DNA of 53,480 nucleotides, taken from IMG/VR virus record IMGVR_UViG_3300047557_000938, positions 1 to 53,480 of that record; one strand, 5' to 3'. The notes below the pieces were generated by a model. The model ran no database searches. It was given only the letters and a program-made list of their open reading frames with translations, and had not been told where the DNA came from. A program made the translations under genes and the position numbers. Shown piece after piece: positions 30,385-34,605 of the stretch (its first letter is position 1; each line of letters begins with the position of its first letter). The stretch comes from a virus.

Positions 30385-30610
30385 ACCGTTGAGGGTGCCA
30401 AACGAGTACGAGCGTGCTCAGTTAGACATCGTGAAGGACATAAACGAAACAATCATAAAGAACATTGAACGGAATAAGGCTCTCTCCAAGGATCGCCGCG
30501 AGCGAGTCCTCTCCCTCCTGGCTGAAGGCTGGTCGATGTACGGCATCGCTCTAGAAACAGGCATCACCCCCAACACCGTGAAGAGAATCGTGGAGTCCAA
30601 GCATGAGTGA
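30377..30610 (+). CDS. Small HTH protein, 77 aa
   Basis: AAGGAG lies 7-12 bases before the ATG. The C-terminal segment RVLSLLAEGWSMYGIALETG with ITPNTVKRIVES is a sigma-70-region-4 or resolvase-type helix-turn-helix. The N-terminal half is a charged helix (IVKDINETIIKNIERNKAL). It immediately precedes the DNA-modification operon and overlaps its first gene, so it may regulate it. Confidence 0.65.
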   Translation: MPRPLRVPNEYERAQLDIVKDINETIIKNIERNKALSKDRRERVLSLLAEGWSMYGIALETGITPNTVKRIVESKHE

Positions 30611-31412
30611 CGCACTCGAGATTGAAATGATCCCATTGAAAGACGTTCGACTGGACCCGAAGAATGCACGCTCCCACTCCGAGCGAAACCTAGAGGCGAT
30701 AATGGAGTCGCTGCGCCAGTTCGGTCAGCGCAAGCCCATCGTGGTCACTCACGACGGGATGGTCGTCGCCGGCAACGGGACCGTGGAAGCGGCACAAAAT
30801 CTAGGCTGGACTCAAATCTCCGCCACGCGTATCCCCGACGACTGGTCGCGGCAGCAGATCACCGCCTACGCGATTGCAGACAATCGAACTGCTGAACTCG
30901 CATCATGGGACTCCGAGATCCTCGTTCCAGCACTCGCCGAACTTGAAGCGGCTGGAATGTTGGAGTGGACAGGCTTCACTCAATACGAGTTGCAGAACTG
31001 GGACTCGCTGGCTCTGCGAGGAGGCCTGCCAGGTGGCGACTCCAGGTTAGACAACGACGAAGAGATTGACCCTGACGAGGAGCAAGGATCACTACTCGCA
31101 CTTGCGGATGTGACAGTTGCAGAGCCGAAACATGAAGTAGCGCAGCATGACATATTCATGCTCACTATGCCGAAGCATGATGTGACGCATGTCTTGATCG
31201 TTGCAAACGTGATGAAGGAATGGACCCTCTGGGCTGACTACTTACAAGGCGAAGCGATCTTCGTTCCCTTCCCTGATCCATTCATCACTGGAACGGACGT
31301 GGCTCGCAAACAGCCTCTTGTTTTAGTGCAACCCGATTACTACATGGCGGGTCATGTCCTCGACAAGCACGCCGCCTTCTATGGTGAAGAGCACGTAACG
31401 AGGATGCCGTGA
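30603..31412 (+). CDS. ParB-like protein of the 7-deazaguanine operon
   Basis: A 269-residue protein. Residues 10-70 (IPLKDVRLDPKNARSHSERN, FGQRKPIVVTHDGMVVAGNG, TVEAAQNLGW) form the ParB/Srx N-terminal domain; ADNRTAELASWDSEIL and FTQYELQNW follow. In ParB-methyltransferase fusions this region leads into a methylase; here the C-terminal 120 residues (HDIFMLTMPKHDVTHVLIVA and later DYYMAGHVLDKHAAFYGEEH) keep a vaguely similar layout but I see no SAM-binding FxGxG or DPPY motif. ParB-like proteins often sit next to DpdA in phages. It may bind DNA for the modifier. It ends in a GTGA overlap with dpdA. Confidence 0.75.
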   Translation: MSDALEIEMIPLKDVRLDPKNARSHSERNLEAIMESLRQFGQRKPIVVTHDGMVVAGNGTVEAAQNLGWTQISATRIPDDWSRQQITAYAIADNRTAELASWDSEILVPALAELEAAGMLEWTGFTQYELQNWDSLALRGGLPGGDSRLDNDEEIDPDEEQGSLLALADVTVAEPKHEVAQHDIFMLTMPKHDVTHVLIVANVMKEWTLWADYLQGEAIFVPFPDPFITGTDVARKQPLVLVQPDYYMAGHVLDKHAAFYGEEHVTRMP

Positions 31413-32308
31413 AGAAGAAGAACACAGGAGGCGGGACGTTCGACAAGAACGAGCAACCCGTCTACTTCATCGCGTCCGGCCCCACGCAACTAGAGATCGC
31501 GCAAGAGATCACCGACCATCTGCTTGTTGCCGTAAACGAGTTGGAATCCCCAAAAGCAATCGAACAGTTCGACAAGATGCTCGACACGGGAGCAAAGGTG
31601 TTTCTGGACTCCGGCATCTTCAACTTGACCAACAGGCACATGCGTGCCCACGGCATCACCATGGACGAAGCCCTAGCACTCGCGCCAGACGAGATTGACG
31701 GCTTCGACAAACTGTGGGACAACTACTGCGAGATTGTGACCCGATTCGCCAATCGCGTGTGGGGCTTCATCGAACTTGACCAAGGTGGAGCGATCAACAA
31801 ACGCAAGACTCGAGCGCGTATCGAAAAAGAAACAGGGTTGATTCCTGTTCCCGTCTATCATCCACTCAACGACGGCTGGGACTACTTCAATGAACTCGCA
31901 AAAGAATATGATCGGATCTGTTGCGGCAACGTCGTGCAGGCGAATCAAGCCACACGCAAGCGGTTGATTACAACCTTGTATGAACGGCAAAGACAGGATC
32001 ATCCCGATACTTGGATTCATTTCTTGGGCTTCACTCCGAACGAGTGGGTTCATGCGGCGCCGTTCTACGGCTCTTGCGACTCGTCCTCCTGGCTCGTGAA
32101 TGTCCGATGGTCCAGGGCGCATCGAAGTCAAGGAGCGTGCAAGCGGGTCGGTGGGTTCGTGTACGGCATGAGATACAAGTACGGCAGCGACTACACGGAC
32201 GACAACGGTTACGAGAGGGCTATCCGTTTCGCGGGAGCGCAAGGCGGCTGGTTCTTGGAGAAGTCTTGGAAGGCATACATGAACGAGAGGGAAGAGGTGT
32301 TCGGATGA
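31409..32308 (+). CDS. dpdA: DpdA-like DNA guanine transglycosylase
   Basis: A 299-residue protein of the TGT superfamily. KVFLDSGIFN (Asp67) matches the base-recognition Asp of TGT enzymes; IELDQGG (122-127), IPVPVYHPLNDGWDYFNEL, ICCGNVV and IHFLGFTP follow the barrel order; YGSCDSSSWLV places Asp224 where TGT has its catalytic nucleophile. It lacks the C-terminal zinc domain of tRNA enzymes, as DpdA proteins do. It would exchange guanine in DNA for a 7-deazaguanine, protecting the genome against restriction. The neighbouring QueD, QueE and FolE genes support this role over a tRNA role. Confidence 0.82.
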   Translation: MKKKNTGGGTFDKNEQPVYFIASGPTQLEIAQEITDHLLVAVNELESPKAIEQFDKMLDTGAKVFLDSGIFNLTNRHMRAHGITMDEALALAPDEIDGFDKLWDNYCEIVTRFANRVWGFIELDQGGAINKRKTRARIEKETGLIPVPVYHPLNDGWDYFNELAKEYDRICCGNVVQANQATRKRLITTLYERQRQDHPDTWIHFLGFTPNEWVHAAPFYGSCDSSSWLVNVRWSRAHRSQGACKRVGGFVYGMRYKYGSDYTDDNGYERAIRFAGAQGGWFLEKSWKAYMNEREEVFG

Positions 32309-32649
32309 CGGAAGTGTGGTGCACCTTCGAGAAGGTCGGGTTCCATCATTGGCCCGACGCGGCGGACATTCTTCCCCGTCGAGCGTATCTGTCGGATCGT
32401 CACAGGCATCTGTTCAAGATGCGGATCACCGTGCCCGTACTGCACGACGACCGCGACATTGAGTTTCATGAACTGCGCGACTACGCCGAGGAGTGGTGGC
32501 CCGAAGGCGGCGAGATGGGTTCCATGAGTTGCGAGGCAATAGCGCAATCGCTCGGGGCTCACATCATGGACGGGTTCCACATTCCGTGGGTTGAAGTTGA
32601 AGTGTCAGAAGACGGCGAGTGTGGAGCAAGCGTTAGGATGGAAACATGA
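32305..32649 (+). CDS. QueD-like (T-fold) protein of unknown activity
   Basis: A 114-residue protein coupled by overlaps to dpdA and queD. By eye it follows the T-fold pattern of the QueD encoded next: FHHWPDA (His14/15), DRHRHLFKMRIT (His33-x-His35) aligned with VHGHNYVVKVT, then DIEFHELRDYAEEWW with FLLDYNDLKPFGHWL, SCEAIAQSLGAHI with SAENMAQYFAFMV, and VEVSEDGECGA with VSVSETPKTWA (Glu102 for the pterin-anchoring Glu). The usual catalytic Cys before HxH is missing and a Cys76 occurs elsewhere. It could be a partner subunit or an enzyme that changes the deazapurine further. Confidence 0.65.
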   Translation: MTEVWCTFEKVGFHHWPDAADILPRRAYLSDRHRHLFKMRITVPVLHDDRDIEFHELRDYAEEWWPEGGEMGSMSCEAIAQSLGAHIMDGFHIPWVEVEVSEDGECGASVRMET

Positions 32650-33014
32650 CGTTCAGGATCAGTAAAGAGTTCTCATTCTCGTCATCGCATCAACTCCACG
32701 GGCTTAGAGAAGGCCACCCATGCGGTCGCGTTCACGGTCACAACTACGTCGTGAAGGTCACCCTGTCGGGTGAGAAGTTGAACGGCAGCGGGTTCCTGTT
32801 GGACTACAACGACTTGAAGCCTTTCGGTCACTGGCTGGACGACGAGTTGGATCATCGCCACTTGAACGACGTTCTCAACTTTCAACCCTCAGCCGAGAAC
32901 ATGGCGCAATACTTCGCCTTCATGGTGGAGAACACGGTGAACGTTCCCGAGGGAGTGAACATCAGCGTGTCCGTGTCGGAGACTCCTAAGACCTGGGCGA
33001 CCTGGGAGAACTGA
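32646..33014 (+). CDS. queD: 6-carboxy-5,6,7,8-tetrahydropterin synthase
   Basis: A 122-residue protein with all QueD hallmarks: SSSHQL (His15), PCGRVHGHNY (Cys26 nucleophile, His30 and His32 zinc ligands), LDHRHLND (catalytic His70/72 region) and SETPKTW (Glu112, which holds the pterin). QueD turns 7,8-dihydroneopterin triphosphate into CPH4, the second step towards preQ0. It starts in an ATGA overlap and ends in TGATG with queE. Confidence 0.92.
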   Translation: MTFRISKEFSFSSSHQLHGLREGHPCGRVHGHNYVVKVTLSGEKLNGSGFLLDYNDLKPFGHWLDDELDHRHLNDVLNFQPSAENMAQYFAFMVENTVNVPEGVNISVSVSETPKTWATWEN

Positions 33015-33736
33015 TGAACATGGCGGAAGAGATCGCCGAACTGAAACTCGTTCTAGATGTGAATGAGATATTCGGCCCCACCGTACAAGGCGAAGGCCCA
33101 TCGACGGGTGTTCGCTGCGCGTTCCTTCGACTGTCCGGCTGCAACCTCACTTGCGTATGGTGCGACACCCCGTACACGTGGGACTGGAAAGGTCAAAACG
33201 GCACGCCGTACTCCAAGGAAGCCGAAACGCACCCCATGTCGGTCCACGACGTATGGTTTCAACTAACCGGCTACGGTGTTCCCTTGTATGTCATCTCGGG
33301 CGGTGAACCCATGATGCAGCAGGAGGCTCTAGGAGCGTTGATCCCCCGACTCATGGCTGGCGGCAAACAAGTCGAGGTGGAAACGAATGGAACAATCAAG
33401 CCGAAGATCGAGCCCACCCGATTCAACGTGTCACCGAAACTCACTCACTCGGGAGTGCGCGAGAAGATCAGATTCAAGCCCGAAACGTTGAACGCCTACG
33501 TCGGTCGCTCCATTTTCAAGTTTGTGTGTCAGACAGTGAAAGACCTGGACGAAGTGATGTTCATGGCAGCCGAAGCCGACATACCCGACAGCGCGATTTG
33601 GATCATGCCCGAAGGACGCGACCCCGTAACACTCATGTCTCACGCCGAGGCGATCACGGACGAAGCGATCGCTCGAGGCTGGAACATCACAGGCCGACTT
33701 CACGTGATGACGTGGGGCGCAAGGAGAGGTGTATGA
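33014..33736 (+). CDS. queE: 7-carboxy-7-deazaguanine synthase (radical SAM)
   Basis: A 240-residue protein. [20 protein letters not shown] is the QueE signature, [18 protein letters not shown] carries the Cys43-x3-Cys47-x2-Cys50 cluster motif, and [10 protein letters not shown] the SAM-binding glycines. [11 protein letters not shown] and LQVMPEGRDP-like [12 protein letters not shown] follow. It rearranges CPH4 to CDG, making the deazapurine ring. It ends in an ATGA overlap with the FolE fusion gene. No QueC gene follows. Confidence 0.93.
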
Positions 33737-34605
33737 AACTCACATGGCAAGACATTGAGATCGAAGCCCGCAATCTGGCGAAGCGCTGGGCGGGTCGCTC
33801 CTTCTCAGGTGTCTACGGCGTGCCGCAAGGTGGAGTGCCCGTCGCGTTGATCGTGTCGGACCTTCTTGATCTGCCTATTCTTGACGAGCCAGACATTCAC
33901 GCCTTGATCGTGGATGATCTAGTGGACTCAGGTCGCACCCTCTCTAGATACAACCAGGCGTGCGACGCCCTGTATCGGAAGCCCCATTCACCGAATCATC
34001 TCGCTGTTGGAGCGACCGAGGTGGACGAGTGGTTGATCTTCCCGTGGGAGAAAGACGACGGCGATCCGAACGAGATCGTTGTGCGGCTCCTGGAGTACGT
34101 GGGTGAAGACCCGACTCGGGAAGGACTCTTGGACACACCGAAGCGAGTGTTGAAGGCGTTCCGTGAAATGACAGAGGGGTACAAGAAAGACCCCGGCGAG
34201 ATTCTCTCCACTGTGTTCAACGAGGACTTCGATCAGATGGTGTGCCTTCACAACATCGAGTTCGTGTCCATGTGCGAGCACCACTTGCAGCCGTTCCGTG
34301 GAACAGCCGCCGTCGGCTACATACCCAACGGGCAGGTCGTGGGTCTATCCAAGTTGGCTCGCCTCGTAGACGCCTACGCTCGCCGCCTTCAAGTGCAGGA
34401 ACGCATGACGGAGCAGATCGCTGCTGCAATGAACGAGCATCTTGCGCCCGCAGGAGTCGCCGTCTACATTGAAGCGCATCACTCCTGCATGGGTAACCGT
34501 GGTGTTCGCAAGCATGAAGGCCGCATGGTTACACAGAAACTGACGGGGCTCATGAAGGATGATGCCGCCGCACGCGCCGAGTTCATGGGGCTAGTTCAGA
34601 AATAG
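33733..34605 (+). CDS. folE: Phosphoribosyltransferase-GTP cyclohydrolase I fusion
   Basis: A 290-residue two-domain protein. Residues 1-110: [14 protein letters not shown] and the PRPP motif [14 protein letters not shown] (57-70), then [10 protein letters not shown] (98-106), where the Trp and P-W-E match the base-stacking end of guanine/xanthine phosphoribosyltransferases. Residues 112-290: [24 protein letters not shown] (zinc Cys181, His184), [28 protein letters not shown] and [12 protein letters not shown] (zinc Cys252), a complete type I FolE. FolE makes dihydroneopterin triphosphate from GTP. The fused transferase could recapture guanine released by DpdA as GMP. ATG lies in an ATGA overlap after AGGAGAGG. 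Confidence 0.9.

Follow-up and report, generated by a model that had tools for sequence, protein, structure and literature searches.

Among phages, the transglycosylases that swap guanine for 7-deazaguanine are represented by a relative, DpdA, and the string "phosphoribosyl" is absent from the main survey of phage 7-deazaguanine genes (PMC6884629). The string is likewise not in the text of the paper on Sphingomonas phage MMDA13, which calls the fusion gene of that phage FolE (PMC7472734). The fusion joins a phosphoribosyltransferase (PRT) to GTP cyclohydrolase I (FolE), and no description of such a phage PRT-FolE fusion was found in the open-access literature; prior mention elsewhere is possible. 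A gene of this kind was analyzed here in virus record IMGVR_UViG_3300047557_000938 (53,480 bases; the whole stretch is referred to as the window). Its N-terminal domain is like xanthine-guanine phosphoribosyltransferase (XGPRT) without the flexible loop. We consider it rather likely that this domain is a previously undescribed component of 7-deazaguanine clusters, handling guanine or guanine nucleotides together with DpdA and FolE, either in a self-contained recycling or as a purine-sensing switch of FolE, and that its PRTase pocket works without the catalytic loop. The gene and its parts, including the motifs for phosphoribosyl pyrophosphate (PRPP) and pyrophosphate (PPi), are located as follows.

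33733-34605, plus strand: PRT-FolE fusion gene, an intact open reading frame of 290 aa (ATG to TAG).
33733-34068, plus strand: N-terminal mini PRT domain, XGPRT-like, without the flexible loop (residues 1-112; assigned from Pfam, PHROG, and NCBIfam, AlphaFold2, and PDB matches).
33823-33834, plus strand: PQGG, the equivalent of the PPi loop (residues 31-34; SRGG, 36-39, in XGPRT).
33886-33900, plus strand: site without 22 XGPRT residues (about 58-79, the flexible loop), from the profile alignment to Yersinia XGPRT.
33913-33939, plus strand: PRPP motif DDLVDSGRT (residues 61-69; the 10-letter motif is 60-69).
33979-33981, plus strand: K83, the counterpart of K115 in XGPRT.
34030-34050, plus strand: WLIFPWE hood motif (residues 100-106).
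34078-34596, plus strand: complete FolE domain (residues 116-288; Pfam GTP_cyclohydroI PF01227, 3.2e-71).

Sequence, modeled fold, and the conservation of base-binding residues identify the N-terminal domain as a relative of the xanthine-guanine PRTs. Scanned alone, it matched Pribosyltran just below the Pfam cut-off (1.2e-5; 25.1 vs. 26.3 bits), phrog_8995 (PRTase) at 9e-11, and the NCBIfam xanthine PRT PRK09177 at 8e-11, and the last was also matched by 56 of 56 aligned relatives. Sequence-profile matches were obtained to 1vdm (4e-21), GPT-2 (8e-18), and XGPRT (2e-17). A structure prediction, which the original prediction had proposed as a check, gave a confident fold of the XGPRT group of type I PRTs: the AlphaFold2 model of the domain, built on the alignment of 56 relatives, had a mean predicted local distance difference test score (pLDDT) of 93.6, and that of the whole protein 95.6. 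The top ranks from Foldseek and VIA-align were occupied by E. coli/Yersinia XGPRT and by archaeal guanine/hypoxanthine/xanthine PRTs (Z 14-16), the best being E. coli/Yersinia XGPRT (Z 15-16); VIA-align gave a Z of 16.0 for 4jls_D (root-mean-square deviation of 4.1, 114 aligned residues) and 14.7 for 1vdm_G (2.0, 111 residues).

In the profile alignment, G33/G34 correspond to G38/G39 of XGPRT, D61/D62/D65 to D88/D89/D92, T69 to T96, K83 to K115, and W100 to W134; in XGPRT, D92, K115, and W134 contact the purine ring. The PRPP motif and the guanine/xanthine-type base-binding end that had been read from the sequence were both recovered and are conserved among 78 loop-less relatives (near copies included). 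The motif fits DDxxD(S/T)GxT, the purine-pocket lysine K83 is K in 71 of these relatives, W100 is W in 77, and G34, D61, D62, D65, G67, and E106 are invariant in all 78.

The C-terminal half proved to be a complete FolE, as had been claimed. The zinc ligands and the catalytic CEHH and HxC motifs are present, and C181, E182, H183, H184, H250, C252, and R256 are invariant across 42 PRT-FolE fusions; the domain is predicted to convert GTP to dihydroneopterin triphosphate. The joining of the two halves, also part of the original prediction, is not a chance frame, as many other phage contigs carry the fusion, at 42-77% identity, and it is modeled with high pLDDT.

With the full-length protein as the query, 44 IMG/VR loci were found, 12 of which (L007-L018) carry the fusion. 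Its named carriers are PaMx25 and relatives, Vibrio phage VpKK5 and relatives, Stenotrophomonas phages, and MMDA13. The PRT domain alone retrieved at least 368 relatives; the analysis used the best 80, which came to 63 once duplicates were removed. As the seed alignment was drawn mostly from FolE/Que/DpdA clusters and the set stops at these nearest 80, the following fractions describe this subfamily and not all phage PRTs. A survey of FolE fusions near dpdA had been called for, and it returned a FolE-fused PRT in 37 of the 63 non-redundant relatives and at least one of FolE, QueD, QueE, QueC, and DpdA within 6 kb in 60. Among the 35 relatives with full flanks, FolE, QueD, and QueE were each found in 31, QueC in 29, and DpdA in 28. 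The PRT-domain tree was poorly resolved; on its well-supported branches, fused and unfused states interchange at least twice, and by parsimony five times.

The domain also occurs on its own. In Flavobacterium phage immuto, a loop-less PRT stands by itself immediately ahead of FolE, with QueD, QueE, DpdA, and QueF nearby; the DpdA annotated in the immuto record was missed by our DpdA profile, and absences of DpdA by that profile were not counted as evidence. In L141 (a 171 kb contig, maybe a fragment), a loop-less PRT accompanies DpdA and neither FolE nor QueE was found, which points to the product of DpdA. Complete PRTases accompany the pathway as well: Brevundimonas phage MaInes has a complete loop-bearing XGPRT directly after FolE, with QueE elsewhere in the genome. 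Loop-bearing or longer-loop XGPRT-like genes were seen near FolE/QueE in L034, L136, L139, L143, L148, and L052. Loop-bearing PRTs had been considered as a negative control for pathway linkage and were dropped, because several of their contigs carry FolE/QueE near the PRT or elsewhere; no enrichment is claimed.

A whole-protein search of genome contigs retrieved 80 loci with bacterial FolE homologues, none of which contained a PRT when scanned with the PRT profile; the fusion therefore looks largely phage-borne, with one plasmid copy. That copy, on Sinorhizobium chiapasense plasmid pSchITTGS70c (L235, 7803-8696), is accompanied by QueD, QueE, and QueC, with no annotated DpdA nearby, and may be left over from a phage or serve the bacterium itself.

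The following genes precede the fusion in the window.

30603-31412, plus strand: ParB-like gene (phrog_620, 1.4e-38), directly upstream of dpdA.
31409-32308, plus strand: DpdA, of the DNA guanine transglycosylase family (phrog_887, 1.5e-23).
32305-32649, plus strand: phrog_17812 protein (114 aa), QueD-like by profile comparison, between DpdA and QueD.
32646-33014, plus strand: QueD (6-carboxytetrahydropterin synthase; PF01242, 1.1e-31).
33014-33736, plus strand: QueE (phrog_2076, 2.5e-59).

DpdA, FolE, QueD, and QueE, which together mark a 7-deazaguanine DNA-modification cluster, are thus all in the window, and the invariant Asp residues of the DpdA family alignment are retained by the window DpdA. 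DpdA had been placed three genes upstream of the fusion; it is four, with the phrog_17812 gene, QueD, and QueE lying between. In the order ParB-like gene, DpdA, phrog_17812, QueD, QueE, and PRT-FolE, every junction is a stop/start overlap (4 bases, ATGA, between QueE and PRT-FolE), and because of these overlaps, coupled translation of the genes as one operon is likely. Similar ParB-like genes occur at 34 related loci, in most cases immediately before dpdA; a role of the ParB-like gene in DNA modification is possible. A WhiB-family regulator is encoded at 39514-39792 (PF02467, 3.3e-21), which suggests an actinobacterial host. Megablast of the PRT-FolE locus against named phages gave no match.

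Guanine release is expected from the known chemistry of DpdA and tRNA-guanine transglycosylase, because DpdA is related to guanine-exchanging transglycosylases. In the proposed mechanism, DpdA would free one guanine for each 7-deazaguanine put into the phage DNA, the PRT domain would capture the freed guanine and make GMP with PRPP, host kinases would raise GMP to GTP, and the attached FolE would spend this GTP on the first step of 7-deazaguanine synthesis. The loop would presumably thereby be closed and GTP spared. Assuming that 30% of G is replaced and that the burst is 100 genomes, about 0.9 million guanines would be freed per cell (about 1.5 mM in 1 fL), which even a slow PRT enzyme could presumably handle if abundant. 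The conversion of GMP to GTP requires GMP and GDP kinases, and nothing here puts kinases in the complex.

The end product of the pathway varies among the loci. No QueC, the enzyme of the preQ0 branch, was found in the window, and the QueD-like phrog_17812 gene is there instead (hhalign probability 95.5, E 1.6e-8). Across 96 non-redundant QueE loci, 63 had only QueC, 21 only phrog_17812, none both, and 12 neither (Fisher p 4.5e-13). The phrog_17812 protein may be DpdL, the 7-carboxy-7-deazaguanine (CDG) decarboxylase reported by Cui et al. 2023; if so, 7-deazaguanine and not preQ0 is predicted in the phage DNA. The PRT pocket is constant across loci with QueC, with the QueD-like gene replacing QueC, and with QueF. 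Its ligand should therefore be one common to all, i.e., guanine, guanine nucleotides, or PRPP.

This constancy bears on the possibility that the PRT phosphoribosylates a 7-deazaguanine base (CDG, preQ0, or 7-deazaguanine) into modified-base nucleotides, in the manner of TubE. TubE, from a cluster of the FolE/QueD/QueE type, turns CDG and PRPP into a nucleotide (PMC6112128), and because QueC was not found in the window, the pathway here could end at CDG or a derivative. However, the pocket does not change with QueC, the QueD-like gene, or QueF; D65, which is expected at the purine N7, is invariant, while 7-deazaguanines carry a carbon at that position; and the cluster has DpdA, which inserts a free base into DNA. 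We therefore regard such a role as improbable. As the pocket is constant while the end product varies, a slimmed guanine/xanthine-type PRT that recycles guanine is the best single explanation of the N-terminal domain, and we give it an even chance of being correct. It is supported by the profile and fold of XGPRT and the archaeal PRTs, by the retention of D65, K83, and W100, and by the recurrent linkage to the pathway.

Several points weigh against guanine recycling. Hosts generally have a guanine salvage of their own. In three relatives (L104, L114, and L128), the 6 kb on either side hold none of the pathway genes. Enterobacteria phage 9g has DpdA and a 204-aa FolE with no such PRT in the 50 kb examined; the PRT is therefore an accessory that the pathway does not require. 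The flexible loop covers the active site in XGPRT-class enzymes, and in the profile alignment, it falls in a 22-residue gap: the spacing from G34 to D61 is 26 residues, compared with 48 (G39-D88) in XGPRT, and the gap is about 30 residues relative to the loop-bearing enzyme of MaInes. The PPi-loop Arg (R37 in XGPRT) is Gln here and R in 51 of the 78 relatives. In orotate phosphoribosyltransferase, modification of one loop lysine lowered kcat 150-300-fold (PMC10087573). Hypoxanthine phosphoribosyltransferase with a partial loop deletion still binds nucleotide (PMC6783271), and by analogy, ligand binding by the loop-less domain is thus likely, and efficient catalysis uncertain. No loop-deletion kinetics of XGPRT were found in the open-access literature. 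The guanine recycling of the original prediction therefore stands in part: the PRT is a purine-type relative, FolE is complete, the pair sits with DpdA, and the linkage recurs as a fusion, as separate neighbors, and with complete loop-bearing PRTases beside FolE, whereas the absence of the loop had been overlooked. Catalysis without the loop, guanine as the substrate, and a benefit of the physical coupling are what we infer and are unproven.

Because the catalytic loop is missing, a ligand sensor stays a serious rival, which we nevertheless hold to be rather unlikely. The domain would carry out no transfer; it would bind PRPP, GMP, or guanosine tetra- or pentaphosphate ((p)ppGpp) and switch the FolE decamer according to the purine supply, similar to PurR. 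PurR has the PRT fold and responds to PRPP and (p)ppGpp. The latter is an anti-inducer of this regulator (PMC8789054), and the structural matches included a Neisseria protein whose structure was solved with ppGpp in place (5vog). The loss of the loop throughout the subfamily while the ligand residues are kept, and the direct fusion to FolE, would fit such allosteric control. In contrast, the purine-specific K83 and W100 are retained, although a pure PRPP sensor has no need of them, free-standing loop-less PRTs exist, one of them in a contig without detectable FolE, and complete loop-bearing PRTs occur in the same gene neighborhood.

The missing loop could also mark a decayed PRT that is kept only to help FolE fold, stay soluble, or assemble. 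It takes the place of the short N-terminal extension that is usual in FolE, and the FolE of 9g, a phage with no PRT found in the 50 kb examined, works without one (complementation reported in PMC6884629). Nevertheless, conservation across a deep tree is highest in columns within or next to the three ligand motifs, and free-standing PRT copies persist beside the pathway; a vestigial or structural role thus appears to have only a slight chance of being correct.

Guanine-replacing phages must dispose of the guanine removed by DpdA while FolE drains GTP. A domain dedicated to salvage or sensing and attached to FolE would, if true, be an unrecognized part of a well-studied anti-restriction pathway, and it raises the question of whether type I PRTases are able to work when the flexible loop is missing. 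The prediction is testable in isolated phages, as PaMx25, VpKK5, and immuto carry the PRT and none was found in 9g. Current annotations hide the domain in entries for GTP cyclohydrolase or hypothetical proteins. In PaMx25 (L002, 5772-6702), the annotated start of folE is an internal one, a longer open reading frame beginning at 5809 takes in the PRT domain, and the hypothetical protein PaMx25_38 is annotated in another frame over the PRT region.

Among known systems, XGPRT (Gpt; 1a95, 4jls, and 5xtk) shares with the PRT domain the fold, the N-terminal TW helix, the GG of the PPi loop, the PRPP motif DDLVD(S/T)G.T, the Lys and Trp of the purine pocket, and the PW(D/E) end, whereas the PRT domain is about 22-24% identical, has 22 fewer loop residues and Gln for the PPi-loop Arg, and is fused to FolE. 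The archaeal purine PRTs (Pyrococcus 1vdm and Sulfolobus GPT-2, 4z1o/5bqp) are the best profile matches and have the W(I/L)(V/I)FPW(E/D) ending in common with it, but they have the extra loop residues and are cellular and unfused. PurR of Bacillus uses the PRT fold as a ligand sensor and not as an enzyme, and it is a DNA-binding repressor without FolE. TubE of the tubercidin cluster is, as here, a PRT encoded with FolE, QueD, and QueE homologues; unlike PRT-FolE, it has 194 aa, acts on CDG in secondary metabolism, and is not fused to FolE (PMC6112128). The FolE of phage 9g is like the window FolE in its domain and neighborhood (QueD, QueE, and DpdA), but its 204 aa contain no PRT domain. The FolE genes of PaMx25, VpKK5, and MMDA13 have the same PRT-FolE fusion as the window and are annotated only as GTP cyclohydrolase.
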